The notes under the pieces are model-generated. The model was not told the origin of the DNA and did no database searches. It worked only from the letters and a program-made list of their open reading frames with translations. A program made the position numbers and the translations under genes. Shown here piece by piece: positions 21,131 through 37,262 of a DNA stretch of 64,000 bases (position 1 is its first letter; each line of letters starts with the position of its first letter). Source of the DNA: Shouchella patagoniensis (GTDB taxonomy: Bacteria; Bacillota; Bacilli; Bacillales; Bacillaceae_D); contig NZ_KV917377.1 in the NCBI RefSeq assembly GCF_002019705.1, positions 742,565-806,564 of the forward strand, in the 5' to 3' direction.

Positions 21131-23038
21131 CTACATGACCCTTTTAAACATTTTCTCCAATTCATACGTGGAAAAATGGATGATAATTGGTCGCCCGTGG
21201 GGGCATGTGTATGGTTCTGAACATCTACGTAAAGTTTCTAATAGTTGGAAGATCTCATCATGACGTAAATGACGATTCGCCTTGATCGCTGCTTTGCAAC
21301 TCATTAAGATTGCTGCTTCTTCGCGCAAATCTTGTATATTAATCGTCCGCATGTCGAGTAACTGCTCAAACATTTCTCGGATAGTCGACTCTTCTTCCCC
21401 ACTTGGAAACCATGTAGGGTGTGAACGGACCATAAATGTATTCTTTCCGAATTCTTCTAAAAACAATCCCACTGCTTCTAATTTTTCCTTTGATTCATTG
21501 ATTAAAAGTGTTTCACGTGTGGTTAACTCTAACGTAATCGGCACAATTAATTCTTGCGTTTGTGCCAAAGGCTCCGCAAGCTTTTTATGGAAGTATTCAT
21601 ATTTAATACGTTCCTGAGCTGCGTGCTGATCAATTAAATACATTCCATTTTCATTCTGAGCAATAATGTATGTGCCATGCATTTGTCCGACCGGATAAAG
21701 AGGGGGGACCGACGCGTCCTCTTCTTCATTTTGCTGAACGTCATGATCTCCCTTACGCTCAACCTCTTGCACCGATGCTTCCATTTCTGGTTTAGCGTGA
21801 ACCTCTTCTTCGACCTCAAGTGATTCAGTGCTTAGTGAAACATCATAGGAGGTACGATCCAGGTCCCGTGGCAAGTCTTGTGCTTGTTTATACGCTACCT
21901 CTTCCCCCGGCATGAAAGAGCGTTGACTATCTTGTGGCCGCTCTCGCTCTCGCACCATTTCGTTTGCTCGGTGCGATTCATACGCTAAAGAGAAAGCAAG
22001 CTGCTCCGATTCTGCTGGCTTTGCTTTTTGTGATTTAGTCGGCTCTGGAATAAGCGTCTCTTTTGTTAATGCTTTTTTAATGCTTGTCGTAATAATTTCC
22101 GCCAATGCGTCTTCTTTACTTAAACGAACTTCGAGTTTAGCTGGGTGAACGTTCACATCAATTAATTTAGGATCCATTTCTAATTTCAAAACTGCAATGG
22201 GGTAGCGTCCAATAGGAAGTAATGTATAAAAACCTTGTTGAATGGCTTTTGCTAATTTGTAATTACGAATATACCGCCCATTAATAAAGATCGACATATA
22301 CTGGCGGCTCGCACGAGTTAATTCTGGTTTCGCCACATATCCACTTAATTCGTAATCCAATGATGTCCCTTCAATCTCAACCATAGATGATGCAGTTTGA
22401 CGACCGTATACTTGAGCAATTACCTGAAGCGTATCTCCATTTCCAGCTGTCTGTAACACTGTCTTACCATCACTAACATAATGAAAACCAATAGATGGAT
22501 AAGCAAGTGCCATACGGTTCATTACATCACTCACATGCCCCGATTCGGTTAAAACCGTTTTTAAATACTTAAGTCGTGCTGGTGTATTAAAAAAAAGATC
22601 TTTAACAACAATGCTTGTTCCTCGACGAGCACCAGATGGCTTTTTATCTTTTATTACACCACCTTGAAGAGTCATTTCGACTCCCTGCCCTCCCGTGCTT
22701 GTTGATATTAATACTGTCGAAACGGAAGCAATACTCGGTAGGGCTTCACCGCGAAAGCCCAAAGTGCGGATAGTAAACAAATCACGGTCCGTTTTAATCT
22801 TTGAAGTCGCATGACGCAAGAATGCCAATTCAAGCTCCTCTGGCTCAATACCGCCACCGTCATCAACAATGCGAATTGAACTCAGTCCACCTTCTTCGAT
22901 CTCAACAAGAATCTGTTTGCTGTTTGCATCGATCGCATTTTCAACAAGTTCCTTAACGATGGAAGCAGGACGTTCAACCACTTCACCTGCAGCTATTTTA
23001 TTTGACAATGAATCGTTTAACTGTTGAATCGCTGCCAC
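21131..23038 (-). CDS. mutL: DNA mismatch repair protein MutL
   Basis: A 635-aa MutL. The GHKL ATPase domain has SNKIAAGEVVERPASIVKELVENAIDA, DDGGGI and TLGFRGEALPSI. A variable acidic linker lies at about 340-440. The C-terminal domain carries the endonuclease metal motif DQHAAQERIKYE and the zinc-site segment CPHGRP, so this MutL should nick DNA as in other bacteria lacking MutH. GTG at 23038 is chosen because GAGGTGG precedes it and because MAAIQQLND aligns with the B. subtilis start. It lies 21 bp after mutS. Confidence 0.96.
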   Translation of the reverse strand: MAAIQQLNDSLSNKIAAGEVVERPASIVKELVENAIDANSKQILVEIEEGGLSSIRIVDDGGGIEPEELELAFLRHATSKIKTDRDLFTIRTLGFRGEALPSIASVSTVLISTSTGGQGVEMTLQGGVIKDKKPSGARRGTSIVVKDLFFNTPARLKYLKTVLTESGHVSDVMNRMALAYPSIGFHYVSDGKTVLQTAGNGDTLQVIAQVYGRQTASSMVEIEGTSLDYELSGYVAKPELTRASRQYMSIFINGRYIRNYKLAKAIQQGFYTLLPIGRYPIAVLKLEMDPKLIDVNVHPAKLEVRLSKEDALAEIITTSIKKALTKETLIPEPTKSQKAKPAESEQLAFSLAYESHRANEMVRERERPQDSQRSFMPGEEVAYKQAQDLPRDLDRTSYDVSLSTESLEVEEEVHAKPEMEASVQEVERKGDHDVQQNEEEDASVPPLYPVGQMHGTYIIAQNENGMYLIDQHAAQERIKYEYFHKKLAEPLAQTQELIVPITLELTTRETLLINESKEKLEAVGLFLEEFGKNTFMVRSHPTWFPSGEEESTIREMFEQLLDMRTINIQDLREEAAILMSCKAAIKANRHLRHDEIFQLLETLRRCSEPYTCPHGRPIIIHFSTYELEKMFKRVM

Positions 23039-23058
23039 TGGTTCCACCTCATTTCAGC

Positions 23059-25680
23059 TTATTTTCTTTTTAACTGTTTTTGCCACTGATCGATTTTTTC
23101 CAACGCTTGAAATGGCGTCAAGTGTAAAAGATCCGTTTCCACAATTTTTGTGAGCAACTCTTTTTCTTTTCTGTTTAATTCTTTTTCCTTTTGTTTTTCT
23201 ACCTCTGGTTCAAACAAAGAGAGCTGCTGTGGTTCTTCAGTAATTGTAACAGCAACTTCTTCTACACCAAGCTCTCTGTCGTCCATTTGAGTGGTTGGCA
23301 AATCACGGTTTCCATGGCTCGTCTCAAGCGTTTTTAACAACTGTTCAGCACGCGTTGTCACATTTCTAGGCAATCCGGCAAGTTCTGCAACATAAACACC
23401 ATAGCTTCGATCTGCTGCACCTTCTATCACTTTGTGTAAAAACACAACGGTCCCATTCTCTTCGGCAGCGGAAACGTGGACATTACGTAAGTTCGGAATG
23501 GTTTCTGCTAAAGTTGTAAGTTCGTGATAATGAGTGGAAAACAGTGTTTTTGCCCCTATGGATTTATAAATGTATTCAATAATTGCTTGAGCAAGCGCCA
23601 TTCCATCGTATGTAGATGTACCACGGCCAATTTCATCAAGAAGGATTAAGCTATGCGGAGTTGCTTTGGTAAGCGCATCCTTAGTCTCTAACATTTCCAC
23701 CATAAATGTACTTTGTCCGCTGGCTAAATCATCAGCTGCACCAATACGGGTAAAAATTTTATCAAATATAGGTAGTGTTGCTTCATCGGCAGGAACAAAG
23801 CTCCCAATCTGCGTAAGAACAACGGTTAAAGCCAACTGACGCATGTACGTTGATTTTCCGCCCATATTGGGACCTGTAATTAATAACATGTCACGATCAT
23901 CTGTTAAGTTAATTTCATTTTGTACGTAACTGCCCCGTTTAATGACGGTTTCCACGACTGGGTGTCTGCCACCTTTAATCGCCACATCTCGTGAATTGGT
24001 TAACGTTGGTTTTACATATAAATTTTGTTCAGCCACAGCTGCAAATCCTGCCAGTACATCCATCTCGCTAATCTCGCCAGCAAGCAGTTGTAGTGATGGA
24101 ACAAATTTTTCAACTTGACTGCGAATGCGTACAAACAATTCATATTCTAATTCAGACAGTTTTTCATCGGCTTCAAGAATAAGTGCTTCTTTCTCTTTAA
24201 GCTCTGGTGTAATATACCGTTCTGCATTAGCGAGCGTTTGTTTACGCTCATAACGGCCTTCAGGCAGTAAATGTGTATTAGCACGAGAGACTTCAATGTA
24301 ATATCCAAATACTTTGTTGTATCCTACTTTTAAAGAACGTATACCCGTTGATTCACGCTCTGAGCGCTCGAGTTCCGCAATCCATTGTTTTCCGTTTCTA
24401 CTAGCATCACGATACGTATCCAATTCTTTATTATATCCGTCCACAATAAGTCCGCCATCTGTCACTGAAATTGGCGGGTCCTCAACAAGGCTTTCTCCTA
24501 ACATCACCACAAGTTCTTTGAAAGGGCTAAGCTCCTTTAACCAATGGTTTTGCAAGCCTAATTGCGCAAGGTGAGCTGTAATTTCTGGCAACTTACTAAG
24601 AGAACGCTTCAATTGAGCCAGCTCTCTCGCATTTACACTTCCATAAGCAATTCTAGCTGCCAAACGTTCAATATCATAAACTTCTTTAAGCGTATCTCTT
24701 AATGTTTCCCGTTCAAAATACTGTTCTAAAAACTGTTCAATGATTGCTTGTCGATTTACGATCGCTTCTTCTTTAACTAATGGACGATCAAGCCACTGAC
24801 GTAACAACCTTCCTCCCATTGATGTCACAGTTTGATCGATGATAGAGAGCAAAGAACCGCTTTTTTTCTTGTCTCTCAACGTTTCGACTAATTCTAGGTT
24901 ACGCTTCGCGTGTACATCCATCTTCAAAAATGAATCAGAAGGGTAAAAAACCGCTTTTTGTAAGTGTCTTAACGATTGTTTTTGAGTTTCAATCAAATAG
25001 TGAAGCATGCGATTATATGCTTGTTTTAAAGCTGGTTGCTGAATATGACAAATCAACCCTTCATATTCTTTCAGTTCACTTTCATCACTTTGGACTGTGA
25101 CAATAAAGCTTGGATGTGTTTCTAGCTTTTCTTTTAGCGCCAATTCAATGTCATCTGGAGCAATGACTTCTTTTGCATTTCCAGCTAAAATCTCTTGTAA
25201 TAAATCATCCATATCACCAGTTAATAGCGTTACATCTGTCTCACCTGTTGAAAGATCGCACCGGGCTATTCCATACGCATTTTCCCCTTCACAAGAAAAT
25301 GCAAGCAAGTAGTTGTTTTCTTTTTCCGGAAGCAATTTGCTGTTCATTAATGTACCAGGAGTCAACACTTTCGTAACTTCGCGTTTCACAACTCCTTTTA
25401 CCATTTTTGGATCTTCAACTTGTTCACAAACAGCGATTTTATATCCTTTTTCAATTAATCGCGTAATATAATTTTCAGCAGAATGATGAGGAACACCACA
25501 CATTGGAATGCGTTCTTCTCCTTGCCCTCTTCCTGTTAACGTAATCTCAAGTTCTTTTGACGCTTTAATCGCATCTTCATAAAACATCTCATAAAAATCG
25601 CCTAAACGAAAAAAAAGAAATGCATCTTTATAGTTGGCTTTAATTTGTAAATATTGTTGCATCATTGGGGTTTGTGCCAT
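23059..25680 (-). CDS. mutS: DNA mismatch recognition ATPase MutS
   Basis: An 873-aa MutS, normal length. The mismatch-binding N-terminus contains DAFLFFRLGDFYEMFYEDA, with the Phe-x-Glu wedge motif (FYE). Connector, lever and clamp domains follow. The ATPase has Walker A GPNMGGKSTYMRQ, the Walker B DEIGRGTSTYDG and FSTHYHEL. The C-terminal tail ends in a coiled segment. ATG with a GGAGG site. It starts the mutSL unit; cotE upstream ends in a terminator. Confidence 0.97.
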   Translation of the reverse strand: MAQTPMMQQYLQIKANYKDAFLFFRLGDFYEMFYEDAIKASKELEITLTGRGQGEERIPMCGVPHHSAENYITRLIEKGYKIAVCEQVEDPKMVKGVVKREVTKVLTPGTLMNSKLLPEKENNYLLAFSCEGENAYGIARCDLSTGETDVTLLTGDMDDLLQEILAGNAKEVIAPDDIELALKEKLETHPSFIVTVQSDESELKEYEGLICHIQQPALKQAYNRMLHYLIETQKQSLRHLQKAVFYPSDSFLKMDVHAKRNLELVETLRDKKKSGSLLSIIDQTVTSMGGRLLRQWLDRPLVKEEAIVNRQAIIEQFLEQYFERETLRDTLKEVYDIERLAARIAYGSVNARELAQLKRSLSKLPEITAHLAQLGLQNHWLKELSPFKELVVMLGESLVEDPPISVTDGGLIVDGYNKELDTYRDASRNGKQWIAELERSERESTGIRSLKVGYNKVFGYYIEVSRANTHLLPEGRYERKQTLANAERYITPELKEKEALILEADEKLSELEYELFVRIRSQVEKFVPSLQLLAGEISEMDVLAGFAAVAEQNLYVKPTLTNSRDVAIKGGRHPVVETVIKRGSYVQNEINLTDDRDMLLITGPNMGGKSTYMRQLALTVVLTQIGSFVPADEATLPIFDKIFTRIGAADDLASGQSTFMVEMLETKDALTKATPHSLILLDEIGRGTSTYDGMALAQAIIEYIYKSIGAKTLFSTHYHELTTLAETIPNLRNVHVSAAEENGTVVFLHKVIEGAADRSYGVYVAELAGLPRNVTTRAEQLLKTLETSHGNRDLPTTQMDDRELGVEEVAVTITEEPQQLSLFEPEVEKQKEKELNRKEKELLTKIVETDLLHLTPFQALEKIDQWQKQLKRK

Positions 25681-30833: not shown

Positions 30834-30868
30834 TTCAAAAAAATAAAGTGGCTTTCGCCACTTTATTT
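30834..30868 (-). terminator. Terminator of rny
   Basis: AAATAAAGTGGC / GCCACTTTATTT perfect arms with seven T following on the minus strand; it overlaps the rny stop. Confidence 0.88.
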
Positions 30869-32440
30869 CGCGTACTCGACAGCACGCGTTTCCCTAATCA
30901 CTGTAACCCTTATATGACCAGGATAATCAAGCTCTTGTTCAATTTTCTTTGTAATATCCCGCGCGAGTTTATGCGCTAGTGTATCATCAACAACATCTGG
31001 TCGCACCATAATCCGCACTTCTCTTCCAGCTTGGATTGCAAACGTTTTTTCTACCCCATCAAATGACTCCGAAATTTCTTCGAGTTTTTCTAAGCGGCGA
31101 ATATACGTTTCTAGTGTTTCCCTTCTCGCTCCAGGTCGAGCTGCAGATAAGGCATCAGCCGCTGCCACAAGAGTTGCAATAATTGATGTCGCCTCTGTAT
31201 CTCCATGATGAGAAGCAATCGCATTAATAACGACAGGATGTTCTTTATACTTCGTCGCAAGCTCTACACCAATCTCGACATGACTACCTTCAACCTCATG
31301 GTCAATCGCTTTCCCAATATCATGTAATAAACCGGCCCTTTTAGCAAGCTTCACATCTTCACCGAGTTCAGCTGCCATTAAACCTGTTAAGTGAGCAACT
31401 TCCATAGAATGCTTTAACACATTTTGACCATAACTTGTACGGAAACGCAAGCGTCCTAAGATCTTTATTAAATCTGGGTGGAGCCCATGGACACCAACTT
31501 CAAACGTGGTTTGTTCTCCATATTCTCGAATCGTTTCATCTACTTCGCGACGCGATTTATCTACCATTTCCTCAATTCTTGCGGGATGGATGCGACCATC
31601 TTGGACAAGTTTTTCTAAGGCGGACCTAGCAATTTCGCGACGGATTGGATCAAACCCAGATAAAATAACTGCTTCTGGTGTATCGTCAATAATTAAATCA
31701 ATGCCTGTTAACGTTTCAAGCGCACGAATGTTTCTACCTTCACGTCCAATAATGCGGCCTTTCATTTCGTCATTTGGCAAATTGACAACAGAGACAGTTG
31801 TTTCTGCTACATGATCAGCAGAACAGCGTTGAATAGCAAGCGATAGAATTTCTCTTGATCGCTTGTCTGCCGTTTCCTTTGCTTCAGCCATTTTTTCTTT
31901 TATTAACAGAGCAGAATCTTGCGCCACTTCTTGCTCCACTTCCTGGCGAATAATCATACGCGCTTCTTCACGGCTCAAACCGGAGACTCGTTCTAACTCT
32001 TGCTTTTGCTCCAGCAATAGCTGGCTCATTTTACTTTCCATCTCTTCAACTTGTCGTTGTTTTTTGGCGAGAGATTCCTCCCGTTTTTCTAACGATTCTT
32101 CTTTTTTGTCGAGAGTTACGCTTTTTCGGTCGAGAATCTCTTCTTTTTGGACCAAACGATGCTCTTGTTTCTGAATCTCATTTCTTCGCTCACGAACTTC
32201 ACGTTCTGCATCACTTCGAAGCTTATGGACTTCATCTTTCACTTCCAAAACGGCTTCTTTTTTGTTAGTTTCTGCTTCACGCTTCGCGTCATCAATAATT
32301 TTCTTTGCTGCATGTTCAGCACTTGATATTTTCGCTTCAGCGACCGATTTTCGAACAAGATATCCAACATACGCAGCAACTACAGAGACAGCAAGTACAA
32401 TGAGGCAGAGAACCAAGAGACTTATTTCATAGCTTGGCAT
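30863..32440 (-). CDS. rny: Ribonuclease Y
   Basis: A 525-aa membrane-anchored endoribonuclease that starts decay of many mRNAs. One N-terminal membrane helix (about 5-25), a long Lys/Glu coiled coil (30-195), a KH domain ([26 protein letters not shown]) and an HD domain ([21 protein letters not shown]) with the metal-binding His-Asp. ATG at 32440 follows AAGGGAGGTG. Its partners pnpA and rnjB also lie in this window. Here the SbcCD-like operon precedes it; in B. subtilis pbpX lies in that place. Confidence 0.97.
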
Positions 32441-32577
32441 CGTTACACCTCCCTTGCTATCCAATTGTTGGTTTTAACGTTTTTACGTTGTTAATCATTT
32501 AATAAACAAACTTACATAAATACAGCCTTTTTTACATACTGTATCATTCATTATTTTACGCGCAGAAAAGCTCAGTG

Positions 32578-33237
32578 TCAAGAGCTGGTAAGTTCTTGAA
32601 GTTCGCTCAGTCCGTCACGTATTGTGACCATAAATGCTTTGTCTCCTGACTCTGTTAAATGCTGGTTATGTGTAATCATTACAATTTGGCGCCCAAACAT
32701 TGTTGCGAGGGACTTTAGAAATTCGTATAAATAGTGAGTATACTCCCCTGAGACATGCTTTCCAGGTTCATCTAACAGAAGGGGACCAGCTTGTCTAGGC
32801 TGAGTTGTTTCCATTAACGCCACTCGAAGTGCAAGTGTCACAATGTCTACTACGCCCCCACCTCTAGAATCTTGAGGTTTTGTTTTTACTTTTACACCTT
32901 CGTAATCAGAAACAACAAACATCTCGGCCACTGCTCTGCTTCCATGTTCCTCGAGTTCAATTTCAAACGAAATGAGTGGTCCAAATACATATTGTAGTGC
33001 ATTTGTCACAAGTGTCTCCATTTGTTGTTTTGCCTGTTTTCTTGCGTATTCGGCAGATTGTTGCAATAAGATACGCGCTTTTTCATACGTATCCATTGTA
33101 TCTTCAAACTCAACTAGTTCTGCTTCAGCCTTTTTTAAACGATCACTTAATAGCTTTTTCTTCTCGTCTAGACGCGTCCATTTTTCTTTCGCTGCTTGCA
33201 GCTCTAATTCTAATGCTTGTAAGTCCTCATTGATCAC
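32578..33237 (-). CDS. C-terminal half of a split SbcC/Rad50-type ATPase
   Basis: A 219-aa protein equal to the C-terminal part of an SbcC/Rad50 ATPase. A coiled coil (1-75) leads into the C-lobe. The ABC signature region is DSRGGGVVD (123-131), Walker B is LLLDEPGKHVS (153-163), and the switch His190 is in MITHNQ. It has no Walker A of its own, so it should need the 33468-34913 product to form a nucleotide-binding head. GTG start overlaps the preceding coiled-coil ORF by 11 bp. Last gene of a four-gene overlapping operon. Confidence 0.8.
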   Translation of the reverse strand: MINEDLQALELELQAAKEKWTRLDEKKKLLSDRLKKAEAELVEFEDTMDTYEKARILLQQSAEYARKQAKQQMETLVTNALQYVFGPLISFEIELEEHGSRAVAEMFVVSDYEGVKVKTKPQDSRGGGVVDIVTLALRVALMETTQPRQAGPLLLDEPGKHVSGEYTHYLYEFLKSLATMFGRQIVMITHNQHLTESGDKAFMVTIRDGLSELQELTSS

Positions 33238-33481
33238 GACTAGCTAGCTCCTTTGGAATAAGCGTCCATGCTTCCTCCATAGAACGATTAATCTCACTCT
33301 CTAACCTAGTAATCTCTTCATCTAGTTCTTCCGGTTTCACTCCCAGCTCCTCTAACTCCTCTAGTAATCGATTTTTCTGGTTCTCTAATTCCTCCAACTT
33401 TGCTTCTGCCCGATAACGAACATCCTTCGCTTTATCTATCGCTTGTTTCATCTTCTCCAAATCTTGTTCAACTTGTTTCAT
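33227..33481 (-). CDS. Small coiled-coil linker protein of the split SbcC operon
   Basis: An 84-aa, almost wholly charged coiled-coil protein (heptad-like AKLEELENQKNRLLEELEEL). A Pro-containing turn at GVKPEELDEE breaks the helix, and it ends in a short Trp-containing helix. It lies where the descending coiled-coil arm of an SbcC would begin, straight after the zinc hook of the preceding ORF. ATG at 33481 has GGGGGAG nine bases upstream and overlaps the previous gene by 14 bp. It may bridge the two ATPase halves (inference). No family recognised. Confidence 0.65.
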   Translation of the reverse strand: MKQVEQDLEKMKQAIDKAKDVRYRAEAKLEELENQKNRLLEELEELGVKPEELDEEITRLESEINRSMEEAWTLIPKELASRDQ

Positions 33482-34913
33482 TCGTATGCTCCCCCTCAAA
33501 ATGAATCGCTTGTCCGCACGTTGGACATATCCCTAGTGCTGTTAATTGATCATTATAACTTGCTTCTAATTTCTTTTCTTCATGTTGGTTTTTTACAATA
33601 AACGCTCGACCATCAGCAATGCGTTTCTCTAACTCTTTTTGTGAATATGCAAGTGTAACTAGTTTTGTATGTCTTTTAGTTAATTCCGTTGTCTCATTCA
33701 ACAATGTGACGGCACTTTCCATCTGCCCAGTCCGTTCTGCCTGTTTCTTTACAACTGCTTGATCATTACCTAATTGCTGCAATCGTTCAGCTAATCGAAC
33801 GAGCTTCGTTTTTCGCGCTTGCTTGGCTTGTACACGGCTAATTCGTTCTGTATCGATTTTGTTTAAGAAATCGGTTTGTTGCATCGCTCTTGCTAGTTTC
33901 TGCTGATGTTCGCTAATTACTTGTTTTCTTTCGCGTATTTGCTCTGTTTGTTGCCACTTAGCTGCATAACGATACATCAACTCATGAAGCCGTTCAGCTT
34001 GATTCATATTTTCAGTTTTTCCAAGCCAGATCTTACACGTTTGGCTGTCTTTCATTAGACGACTCCATTGTTCAGATAGCTTTAAAAGCATTTTTTGCTT
34101 GGACCAAAGCTGTTTTACTTGTTCGTAACAGACCTCCCAGTCTCGCAAGTTCTGAACCAACTTCAGCTTGTCTTTTATCATGCTTCGCTCTGTATTGACC
34201 CGATCAAATTTGCTCCCCAATTGTTTTAACATCGCTAACCTTTCTTGGGCCGCTTTTGCCTTTTCTAATCTGAGAAACGCTTTATCTAATTGATTTTTAT
34301 CTTGTTCAAGCCGCTCAAATGGGATGAGTGCTTCGGTTGCTTCTTTTACTTCAAGTTCTTTTTGCTTTGTTCTTTGTGACAAGCTATACACATCTTTTGA
34401 TGTATCTCTTATAGCCATATCCAGATAATGCGCCCCACTCATTCGGCCAATTGTTTTTGCTCGCAATGAGCCAGTTTGTTCTAATAAAAAAGGACCATCT
34501 AGTTGCTGAGCGATTTGCAACTGCCATTCATGATCTGAATCGATTCGAAAAGCTCTCATTTGATGAGCTTGGATGACCTCTTCAGGTACTTGCGATCCAA
34601 ATCCTTCAAGTACCAAATCTTCACTGTCCTGTTTTTTTATAACGTACCGATTTTTTGAAGATGTTCGTTCACGTACAATGGCCACTCCAGTATCAAGTAT
34701 AACCGTTACACGTACAAAATCCGCACCAACTCGAAGAAAATCTGTCCCCCGCGGTTGGTTAAATAACGCCCATCTAATTCCTCGCAAAACAGCTGTCTTC
34801 CCACTATCAGATTGACCAACGATGACATTTAACCCGGAATCAAAATTCACCGCTGTATCCAGATGGGATTGGAAATTTTCCAATCTCACTGACACTATGT
34901 TATTCAGCTTCAT
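33468..34913 (-). CDS. N-terminal half of a split SbcC/Rad50-type ATPase with zinc hook
   Basis: A 481-aa protein equal to the N-terminal half of SbcC/Rad50. The N-lobe starts VRLENFQSHLDTAVNFDSG, and Walker A is GQSDSGKT (33-40), the QSDSGKT form resembling phage-type SbcC proteins. A long coiled coil (about 165-455) ends in a CPTCGQ zinc hook (463-468), and the protein stops 13 residues later. No signature, Walker B or D-loop is present; these are in the separate ORF at 32578-33237. ATG at 34913 overlaps the nuclease gene by 14 bp. The Walker A and hook look intact, so it does not look decayed. Confidence 0.8.
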   Translation of the reverse strand: MKLNNIVSVRLENFQSHLDTAVNFDSGLNVIVGQSDSGKTAVLRGIRWALFNQPRGTDFLRVGADFVRVTVILDTGVAIVRERTSSKNRYVIKKQDSEDLVLEGFGSQVPEEVIQAHQMRAFRIDSDHEWQLQIAQQLDGPFLLEQTGSLRAKTIGRMSGAHYLDMAIRDTSKDVYSLSQRTKQKELEVKEATEALIPFERLEQDKNQLDKAFLRLEKAKAAQERLAMLKQLGSKFDRVNTERSMIKDKLKLVQNLRDWEVCYEQVKQLWSKQKMLLKLSEQWSRLMKDSQTCKIWLGKTENMNQAERLHELMYRYAAKWQQTEQIRERKQVISEHQQKLARAMQQTDFLNKIDTERISRVQAKQARKTKLVRLAERLQQLGNDQAVVKKQAERTGQMESAVTLLNETTELTKRHTKLVTLAYSQKELEKRIADGRAFIVKNQHEEKKLEASYNDQLTALGICPTCGQAIHFEGEHTNETS

Positions 34914-35889
34914 CAGCCTCCCAGCGTTCCTCAATGATGGTCATGCGTCGCAATGCTTCCTGTCGAACCTTGTCTTCAACATTAGACATCGCTGCAATCT
35001 CACTGATGATTTCATTCATTTGTAGTGTTTGAAAATTAGATTGTTCTTTTACTTGCTGTACAAAAGCGTGAAGCTTTTCTTCTTGATGACTTGCTTTCTC
35101 TACATAAGCGCGATCAAGCACATCACTACCTTTTGCCGCTTGCAATTCGATTTCCTTTAACTCAATAACTTCTTTTCTAACCGTGCCTACAATCACCTTT
35201 GGCATCCGTTCTATTTCCGTCCAGTGGTTATTAATACGTGCGATCGCTCCTGGATTACAAATGAATTTCCCCTCGCGTTCTTTAATTCCGAAGCCCGAAT
35301 GAAAATGCCCGGTAAGGATCACATCAGCACTTGTCCCCCAAATATGGTCAACTAACGTATGAGGAATCCCTTCTGGCAATGCTTTTTCAACAAGCATGCT
35401 GTGCGCTAAATGAATCATTTTATCAGCCTGCGTTTCGTTTACAGGATAATAATCAAGCTTTGGATCACGTTGATCCAAATCATAGTGATACGGTTGTCCC
35501 GAAAATTGGACCTTTAACCCTTCTTTTTCAAAAACGACCGGCTGATCTGGATGAATCAATGTCATAATCCCAAAAGCGTCTAATAATCCAAGCATTGTTC
35601 TGGACACGGTCTCTGGGTTATGACCAAACGTATCATGGTTTCCTGATATCGTATAAATCGGTGCATGGGCTTGTCGAAAGATTTGAGCAAACTGGCCAAC
35701 AGTGCTTGGTGACAAATCAGGACGATCAAAAACATCACCACCATGAAGTAACACGTCAACTTGCTCTTTTTTCGCTATTTCGATTACTTGACTAACCTTG
35801 TTTTTTAATGTTTCTGGAAATGTATCTAACCTGTTTTTTGGGGCTGTTCCCCGTATATGTGTATCTGTAAAATAGAGAAACTTAATCAT
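34900..35889 (-). CDS. SbcD/Mre11-like metallophosphoesterase nuclease
   Basis: A 329-aa Mre11/SbcD-type phosphoesterase. The metal motifs are complete: DTH (9-11), GGDVFDRP, SGNHDTFGH and, later, TGHFHSG. A C-terminal helical tail of about 80 residues probably docks on the ATPase coiled coil. It is expected to act with the downstream split ATPase on DNA ends or hairpins. ATG at 35889 follows GGGAGG. First gene of the operon; recA upstream ends in its own terminator, and no LexA box is seen before it. The sequence is far from the housekeeping SbcD I know, so I give no symbol. Confidence 0.85.
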   Translation of the reverse strand: MIKFLYFTDTHIRGTAPKNRLDTFPETLKNKVSQVIEIAKKEQVDVLLHGGDVFDRPDLSPSTVGQFAQIFRQAHAPIYTISGNHDTFGHNPETVSRTMLGLLDAFGIMTLIHPDQPVVFEKEGLKVQFSGQPYHYDLDQRDPKLDYYPVNETQADKMIHLAHSMLVEKALPEGIPHTLVDHIWGTSADVILTGHFHSGFGIKEREGKFICNPGAIARINNHWTEIERMPKVIVGTVRKEVIELKEIELQAAKGSDVLDRAYVEKASHQEEKLHAFVQQVKEQSNFQTLQMNEIISEIAAMSNVEDKVRQEALRRMTIIEERWEADEAE

Positions 35890-36050: not shown

Positions 36051-37097
36051 CTATTTTAAATCAAGGGGAATGTCTTCAAGCGATTCATCCGCTTCTGCTA
36101 CTTTTATTTCACCATCTAAGCCATGATGGTCGCGAATTAATCGCTCAATTTCGGCAGTCATTGCTTGATTCTCTTTTAAGAATTGCTTTGAATTTTCTCG
36201 ACCTTGCCCTAAGCGATCACCTTTGTATGAATACCAAGCACCACTTTTTTCAACAATATCTAGTTCAGCAGCAATATCAAGCATTGATCCTTCTCGCGAG
36301 ATTCCTTCTCCGTACATAATATCCACTTCAGCTAAACGGAATGGTGGAGCCACTTTGTTTTTAACAACTTTAATTTTTGTACGATTCCCAACAATTTCAT
36401 TTCCTTGCTTCAATGCTTCAGCACGGCGTACTTCCAAACGTACAGACGAATAGAATTTAAGCGCACGTCCTCCTGGCGTTGTTTCAGGATTTCCAAACAT
36501 AACGCCAACCTTTTCACGAATTTGGTTGATAAAGATCGCAATTGTTTTTGATTTATTAATCGCGCCAGACAATTTACGCAATGCTTGGGACATTAATCGA
36601 GCCTGCAACCCAACATGGGAATCACCCATCTCACCTTCAATTTCTGCTTTTGGTACAAGTGCGGCAACACTATCGATAACAATGATATCAAGCGCACCAC
36701 TTCGTACAAGCGCTTCAGCAATCTCAAGCGCCTGTTCCCCTGTATCAGGCTGTGATAACAACAGTTCATCAATGTCAACGCCTAATTTTCCAGCATAAAC
36801 AGGATCAAGAGCATGCTCAGCATCAATAAAAGCAGCTTGTCCGCCTTGGCGTTGTACTTCCGCTATCGCATGCAGAGCTACAGTCGTTTTACCAGAAGAC
36901 TCTGGACCATAAACCTCTACAACTCTCCCTTTTGGATAACCACCAACGCCAAGCGCAATGTCTAAAGCGAGCGTCCCACTTGAAATCGTTGATACTCGTT
37001 GTTCTGCTTGTTCACCAAGCTTCATAATTGATCCTTTACCAAACTGTTTTTCAATTTGGCGCAACGCCATGTCTAATGCTTGTTTACGATCACTCAT
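36051..37097 (-). CDS. recA: RecA recombinase
   Basis: A 348-aa RecA, normal length. It drives homologous strand exchange and LexA self-cleavage. Walker [19 protein letters not shown], the Walker [21 protein letters not shown], loop-2 [26 protein letters not shown] and the acidic C-terminus are all present. ATG at 37097 follows AAGGAGAG; the ATG six bases upstream lies in the site. It has its own sigma-A promoter and LexA box, about 160-215 bp upstream. Confidence 0.99.
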
Positions 37098-37262
37098 CTT
37101 CATCTCTCCTTCTTCTTTCCAGTCAATCTATTCAGTAACATGCACACAATTAAGCATGTCTAGGTGTCTGCCTTTTATAGCCAGAAGTTAAATTAGTTCG
37201 TCGAACCCTGTTTACCAAAGTCAACTACCCGCTTTTCACAACTAACTTTTAATGCTTATTCC

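Follow-up and report, generated by a model that had tools for sequence, protein, structure and literature searches.

The window, a 64,000-nucleotide stretch of the Shouchella patagoniensis genome (GCF_002019705.1, contig NZ_KV917377.1, positions 742,565 to 806,564 of the forward strand), carries a set of four minus-strand genes between recA and rny. They encode an SbcD/Mre11-type nuclease, the N- and C-terminal halves of an SbcC/Rad50-type ATPase (N-half and C-half), and a separate small coiled-coil protein (cc). This set is probably an old, mainly vertically inherited, four-subunit version of SbcCD (Mre11-Rad50), a DNA-end nuclease that stands in for canonical SbcCD in the genus of the window. 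The evidence consists of the homology and invariant motifs of the subunits, their persistence as separate frames next to recA and rny, and the lack of a canonical SbcC match in the same genome.

The nuclease and the two ATPase halves

SbcD matches the Pfam Metallophos family (E-value, E, of 2.9e-14), and a profile search identifies archaeal Mre11 proteins as its closest solved structures (3.7e-8). The metal-ligand motifs D9-x-H11, GGD52, GNH85D, H163, and GH195-x-H197 are invariant in 19 of 19 sequences (alignment A4). The protein reaches neither the sbcD nor the Mre11 cut-off of NCBIfam, scoring 40 bits against the 77.65 needed for TIGR00619.

The head of the N-half matches Pfam AAA_23 (5.1e-13) and, by profile search, archaeal Rad50 N-lobe structures (1e-12). 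It contains the Walker A motif GQSDSGKT, and N-lobe residues G33, D36, G38, and K39 are invariant (alignment A5, 39 sequences). The N-half is a better match to solved Rad50 than to PtuA, and hhalign aligns it with four Bacilli SbcC sequences at E 6e-12 (probability 97.5%). The C-half matches Rad50 C-lobe structures (4.7e-8) and features a Walker B motif (LLLDEP), KHVS, and an H-loop (THN), with D156, E157, T189, and H190 invariant (alignment A6, 34 sequences). AlphaFold models were made of single chains. The N-half model, with a predicted local distance difference test score (pLDDT) of 76.8 and a predicted TM-score (pTM) of 0.30, has the Rad50 N-lobe 1f2u_A as its best fold match. The C-half model (pLDDT 83.3, pTM 0.59) begins with a helix of 84 residues; its best fold match is the head of a structural maintenance of chromosomes (SMC) protein, with Rad50 C-lobes also on top. 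An earlier reading of this DNA from its letters alone (the sequence-only reading) had proposed a split SbcC/Rad50 whose heads would need two chains. The Rad50 homology of both halves and their separate frames at 105 of 112 loci support this proposal, and the motifs named in it (GQSDSGKT, CPTCGQ, SRGGG, LLLDEP, and THN) were all located.

A predicted zinc hook near a free end and an arm of stepped length

The N-half of the window continues from its head through a helical arm of about 284 residues to a CPTCGQ motif, which starts 19 residues before the C-terminus. The C463-P464-x-C466 element of this predicted zinc hook is invariant, and N-half profile positions 413-474 match the Rad50 zinc-hook structures 6zff (0.0017) and 1l8d (0.0024). 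A hook close to a free C-terminus had been proposed for the window, and it recurs elsewhere: the distance from the first hook Cys to the stop is 10-90 residues in 104 hook-bearing frames and at most 48 residues in 101 of them.

The arm is repetitive. Over 23 proteins, self-matching of the N-arm is strongest at a lag of 47 residues (combined score 24.4), followed by 94 (17.5); lags 20-119 have a mean of -0.3 and a standard deviation of 6.8, since coiled coils carry periodicities of their own. Four canonical SbcC proteins show no lag-47 signal (-0.4 and -0.8 for the two arms, with fewer proteins compared). Arm lengths change by the same unit. Measured from a head column to the hook, 95 distinct arms include 4 of 236-238 residues, 75 of 282-284, and 7 of 330-331, which are 47-residue steps; the starting column was of our choosing, and the finding is the step, not a whole number of units. 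Helices in the N-half model end at residues 254, 300, and 346, a spacing of 46.

The other two chains show no matching steps. At the seven loci with arms of 330-331 residues, cc has 79-88 amino acids and the C-half 213-223, and the corresponding values at the loci with arms of 236-238 are 80-96 and 210-225. Over all loci, the N-arm ranges from 236 to 337 residues, cc from 77 to 105 amino acids, and the C-half mostly from 210 to 232. N-arm length shifts in steps while the chains presumed to form the return strand barely change. A computed correlation between arm and partner lengths covers almost one arm class only, so it is uninformative.

An altered ABC signature in the C-half

The sequence-only reading took SRGGG in the C-half for the ATP-binding cassette (ABC) signature. 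Alignment with Rad50 3qkr places R-G-G-G-V where L-S-G-G-E is found, with a Gly on the signature Ser, and the weak alignment with SbcC agrees. The motif is thus at the signature position, but it is not the usual ABC signature. The pattern [AS]RGGG[VI]V occurs in 99 of 111 C-half frames and GGG in 110, and none of the 111 has xSGG[EQ].

The coiled-coil protein and natural fusions

The cc protein has a conserved LGVKPE break and an IPKEL end, with a mean column identity of 73% (alignment A3, 22 sequences). It matches PHROG 18563 over profile positions 3-76 of 77 (7.5e-9).

Single frames of roughly 690-700 residues that join SbcD, the N-lobe, and the C-lobe are found in three genomes of one family (Table 1). 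In these three proteins there is neither a cc match nor a hook, and little room is left for an arm. Locus L139 (672-3494, counted on the reverse strand) encodes SbcD fused to the N-half in one 940-residue frame. The existence of the SbcD-N-C form favors a single machine made up of these parts. No fusion of cc to the N- or C-half was seen among the frames scanned, although SbcD is found fused to the N-half or to both. From this difference between cc and SbcD we infer that cc has to be a free chain, which may be present in a non-unit stoichiometry. Several cc copies might conceivably sheathe the N-arm, but steps of 47 residues and a cc of about 80 give no whole numbers.

Conservation, place, and age

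The survey covers 44 loci from named genomes, 398 genomes sampled across the class, and 398 across the phylum; some of the scanned loci share a genome. Within the family, the C-half is present without an internal stop in 41 of 41 genomes. The sequence-only reading asked for the same gene order elsewhere, and all 20 longer family stretches have the order sbcD-N-cc-C-rny-ymdB; recA is also present in 19, and the remaining stretch begins at a contig end. Across the class, 50 of 398 genomes have the C-half at E < 1e-40, a cut that we set ourselves (the next match is at 3e-7), and 65 of 398 phylum genomes have it at E up to 1e-15.

N, cc, and C occupy separate frames at 105 of the 112 scanned loci, from Shouchella to Natroniella. 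An sbcD match accompanies them at 77 of these, partial in a few; the other 28 (L059-L086) are stretches of about 3.6 kb that do not reach sbcD. The seven remaining loci are those of the three fused proteins, L004-L006 (two phages), and L190, which lies at a contig end. At the N/cc junction, the genes overlap by as much as 14 nt or lie up to 32 nt apart (loci with a disrupted N-half excluded), a range that does not suit a single frameshifted gene. None of the stretches examined contains an intact full-length sbcC at this position, the finding in relatives named earlier as one that would overturn a split gene. Frames are broken in a few drafts (sbcD in L037/L087, the N-half in L053/L106 and L115), elsewhere than at the two conserved breaks. 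In L087, from Bacillus sp. JCM 19041, the nearest named relative, sbcD and rny are each in two frames, perhaps through assembly errors.

The place next to recA and rny is common to Bacilli and Clostridia-grade genomes. The 44 named loci, which include Carboxydocella, Thermosediminibacter, Natroniella, Fervidicola, and Thermovorax, have both neighbors in 42 cases; one of the others (L113) begins at a contig end, and the Carboxydocella locus (L121) is without both. Another 36 stretches from the class and phylum samples have recA and rny in 12 cases, rny only in 1, and neither in 23. Second copies of the C-half were observed in genomes G721, G541, and G504 (L188, L189, and L191), in stretches with no recA or rny match.

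Pairwise distances over 38 loci correlate with those of RecA at r = 0.965 for SbcD, 0.797 for N, 0.891 for cc, and 0.956 for C, compared with 0.981 for RecA and Rny; much of this correlation comes from the deep divergence separating Bacillaceae from the other loci. Because the distances follow RecA, the simplest reading is that the locus would be old and mostly vertically inherited, and has been lost or moved in some lines.

Relation to canonical SbcC and archaeal Rad50

The set resembles bacterial SbcCD of the Escherichia coli and Bacillus subtilis type in having SbcD beside an ABC ATPase with Walker A, Walker B, an H-loop, long arms, and a CxxC hook. It differs in its division: in Bacilli, SbcC is a single protein of about 1,030-1,040 residues with LSGGE and no 47-residue repeat (four SbcC proteins), whereas here there are three chains and RGGG. 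Archaeal Rad50-Mre11 provides the nearest solved structures for the head, the hook region, and the nuclease. Archaeal Rad50 is one chain with the signature LSGGE, and the split N-arm differs from it in being repetitive. The solved Rad50 ATPase cores 1f2t and 1ii8 each contain two chains, one matched by the N-half and one by the C-half. Those chains are engineered, co-expressed fragments that lack the hook and the complete arm, whereas the naturally split protein described here retains both.

Neither PF13558 nor TIGR00618 matches at this locus or in the four proteins. Elsewhere in the genome of the window, where a full-length canonical SbcC was to be looked for, PF13558 has no match (70 of 70 candidates scored), and TIGR00618 matches only a 1,194-residue, SMC-sized frame (53 of 55 scored). 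TIGR00618 was not used for the wider census; it passes its cut-off in just 1 of 14 control genomes. In the genus, PF13558 matches 1 of 13 genomes, in a 695-residue frame with an E unlike that of SbcC, and 0 of 13 have an SbcC-like match (all first-look candidates scored). The family yields matches in 9 of 41 genomes, SbcC-like in seven of them (E 1e-11 to 1e-13, frames of 929-1,044 residues).

Across the class, PF13558 also catches frames of about 1,100-1,500 residues, which we take to be Wadjet JetC, and an SbcC profile, A7, was used instead. It matches in 2 of the 50 split-set genomes and 152 of the 348 others (Fisher p = 3.8e-9, kinship ignored). Two candidates were scored per genome, so the total of 154 of 398 is a lower bound. 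The split set and canonical SbcC tend to avoid each other but are not exclusive.

The split set is also present in Halalkalibacterium halodurans (L118), the present name of Bacillus halodurans. For the latter, passages of a published report describe RecBCD in place of AddAB and list SbcC and SbcD among the proteins assigned by orthology (PMC1193525). A literature search for a split SbcC/Rad50 or for this locus returned no title describing one; it used exact phrases and covered few subscription journals, and the absence is weak.

Phage, plasmid, and defense relatives

Relatives of the set exist outside chromosomes. PHROGs 16465, 18563, and 15167 match N, cc, and C of the window, and the C-half is found in nine plasmid records. 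The closest phage counterpart is in Bacillus phage vB_BboS-125, where gp32, gp34, and gp35 correspond, as in the window, to separate N, cc, and C chains; an sbcD-like frame lies downstream of them. Unlike the window, the phage has the order N-(AP2-domain gene)-cc-C-sbcD and occupies a separate branch. The AP2-domain gene lies at L003:5407-5979, between the N-half and cc genes. The sbcD-like frame (L003:7109-8227, about 22285-23403 of NC_048735.1) is not in the gene table of the record. In the tree, the window copy sits among the chromosomal copies, and the phage copy falls outside that group (support 88/96 and 85/84, not starred). Its side group (92/83, not starred) also includes three phylum copies and the copy of genome G215, and the order is N-cc-C-sbcD throughout.

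Distant N- and C-like matches occur in three further phage records, two named and one uncultured; neither of the named phages showed a match to cc. One stretch of Microcystis phage Mvi-JY20 (L006:4833-7807) contains N-like, sbcD-like, and C-like frames, and a 94-residue gene between the latter two has no match to the cc profile. Viral contigs scanned with the C-half alone and then with alignment A1 gave no confirmed relative. SbcCD is described as near universal in jumbo phages, and the passages of that report contain no split SbcC (PMC7824862).

The Walker A sequence had led the sequence-only reading to suggest a phage-type origin. This suggestion is not supported: chromosomal copies follow RecA and Rny, the phage copy branches outside them, and Clostridia-grade genomes carry the set between recA and rny as well.

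Lamassu LmuB is likewise an SMC-like ATPase. It is one chain with an LmuA partner, and N and C together span most of a single LmuB model. In PADLOC, the N-half also matches AriA (5.3e-13). No LmuA match was found among the four proteins, and the SbcD, the cc protein, and the recA/rny surroundings differ from Lamassu.

Layout of the locus

Coordinates are collected in Table 1. The overlaps of sbcD/N, N/cc, and cc/C are 14, 14, and 11 bp on the minus strand, in agreement with the earlier description. So is the assignment of a separate start site to each open reading frame, as a stretch resembling a ribosome-binding site, judged by eye, precedes all four starts. A scan counted 8 promoter-like sites against 7.3 expected and 6 terminator-like sites against 2.7 (standard deviation 1.7); none of the latter is at the end of the four-gene set.

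Table 1. Genes of the split SbcCD set in the window, neighboring genes, and single-frame fusions at other loci
Feature	Positions	Strand	Description
sbcD	35889-34900	minus	329 amino acids, ATG start; SbcD/Mre11-type calcineurin-like nuclease
N-half	34913-33468	minus	481 amino acids, ATG start; Rad50/SbcC N-half
cc	33481-33227	minus	84 amino acids, ATG start; separate coiled-coil protein
C-half	33237-32578	minus	219 amino acids, GTG start; Rad50/SbcC C-half
recA	36051-37103	minus	upstream neighbor of the four-gene set; context, not a subunit
rny	30863-32464	minus	downstream neighbor of the four-gene set; context, not a subunit
Fused SbcD-N-C	L172:3258-5318		
Fused SbcD-N-C	L173:3242-5350		counted on the reverse strand
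Fused SbcD-N-C	L174:3320-5419		counted on the reverse strand

Proposed mechanism and alternatives

In the mechanism that we propose, the N-half and C-half would associate into one ABC-ATPase head, with Walker A contributed by N and the signature, Walker B, and H-loop by C. Two such heads would sit with an SbcD dimer, SbcD lying below. The C-half helix would pair with the stretch of the N-arm next to the head, and cc with a further part of this arm. The long N-arm would carry the zinc hook at its free end, where one zinc could clasp two N-halves. ATP-driven engagement of the heads would control DNA binding and the cutting of blocked ends and hairpins by SbcD, giving the set its presumed role in DNA-end repair.

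Several observations weigh against such a vertically inherited replacement for SbcCD. Seven of the 41 family genomes also have an SbcC-like PF13558 match, so replacement is not absolute; among the seven, A7 confirmed only G018. G074, one of the two A7 matches in genomes with the split set, itself supplied a row of the A7 profile. PF13558 at E <= 0.001 is found in 26 of these 50 class genomes, compared with 307 of the other 348, and in 5 of the 50 the match has an E like that of SbcC (1e-8 to 1e-20), once in a frame of 147 residues. Correlations with RecA are lower within the 31 Bacillaceae (SbcD 0.72, N 0.68, cc 0.59, and C 0.78, with RecA-Rny at 0.83); in the tree, several deep forks are not strongly supported and long branches join each other. 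Taken as a whole, the N-half model is a weak one, and the models represent isolated chains. As for the arm, lag 47 comes second in the window's own protein (2.9, behind lag 37 at 3.7) and ranks sixth in that of H. halodurans, and 9 of the 95 distinct arms miss a multiple of 47 by 3-9 residues (seven of 279, one of 244, and one of 337). The C-half aligns weakly with the four Bacilli SbcC proteins (hhalign E 0.075, probability 0.8%), and the N-half and C-half match the PADLOC model of LmuB at positions 5-483 of 611 (3.9e-11) and 419-585 (3.1e-6), respectively. Finally, the signature Ser of ABC enzymes touches ATP across the dimer. Because this residue is replaced, ATP-dependent closure of the heads may not be canonical.

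It is extremely improbable that the locus is a decayed sbcC, a single gene broken by frameshifts or sequencing errors. The N-cc-C order is colinear with SbcC, the overlaps are short, and draft relatives do have broken frames (N in L106 and L115; sbcD and rny in L087), but separate frames persist from Shouchella to Natroniella, the N/cc junction varies, and the active-site columns are invariant. A phage-, plasmid-, or defense-derived module of the Lamassu kind, lodged beside recA, is an unlikely source. The PHROG matches of N, cc, and C, the set in vB_BboS-125, the C-half in plasmid records, and the PADLOC matches to LmuB and AriA are what such a module would have in its favor. They are opposed by the presence of the set in 41 of 41 family genomes, its shared place in Bacilli and Clostridia-grade genomes, and distances that follow RecA, as well as by a phage copy outside the chromosomal group (on forks that are not starred), the lack of an LmuA match, and an N-half closer to solved Rad50 than to PtuA.

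We also regard it as improbable that the set is an SMC-like structural or tethering complex, in which SbcD regulates but does not cut and cc is a separate brace. GGG in 110 of 111 C-half frames with no SGG[EQ], the stepping of the N-arm without change in its partners, and the SMC head as top fold match of the C-half fit that role. On the other hand, the metal-ligand columns of SbcD are invariant in 19 of 19 sequences, and the Walker A Lys, the Walker B Asp, and the Glu that follows it are invariant in the alignments of the two halves. Moreover, all 77 of the longer stretches with N, cc, and C also encode SbcD, and two lineages have it fused to the head.

A more specific version of the four-subunit nuclease is possible but doubtful, namely that the set represents a distinct, ancestral Mre11-Rad50 branch of the Bacillota with arms that do not form coiled coils within one chain. 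The N-arm would then be a modular ruler of 47-residue units ending in an open zinc clasp, with cc as a brace whose number per arm is not necessarily one, and the heads would close on ATP through the GGG signature. A unit of 47 residues corresponds to about 13 helical turns, so added units would keep the hook in phase. Single units could then be gained or lost with no need to refit a return strand, and the hookless single chain would be the extreme case of shortening.

Implications

The usual teaching is that one SbcC/Rad50 chain extends to the hook and then turns back. The set described here is a natural form with two breaks, one at the hook and one within the returning arm. The split form makes testable the need for a continuous chain at the hook, the relay of the ATP state to the nuclease through the arm, and the control of arm length, as its subunits can be mixed, omitted, or titrated. 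Genomes scored as being without SbcCD may hold SbcCD in another form.

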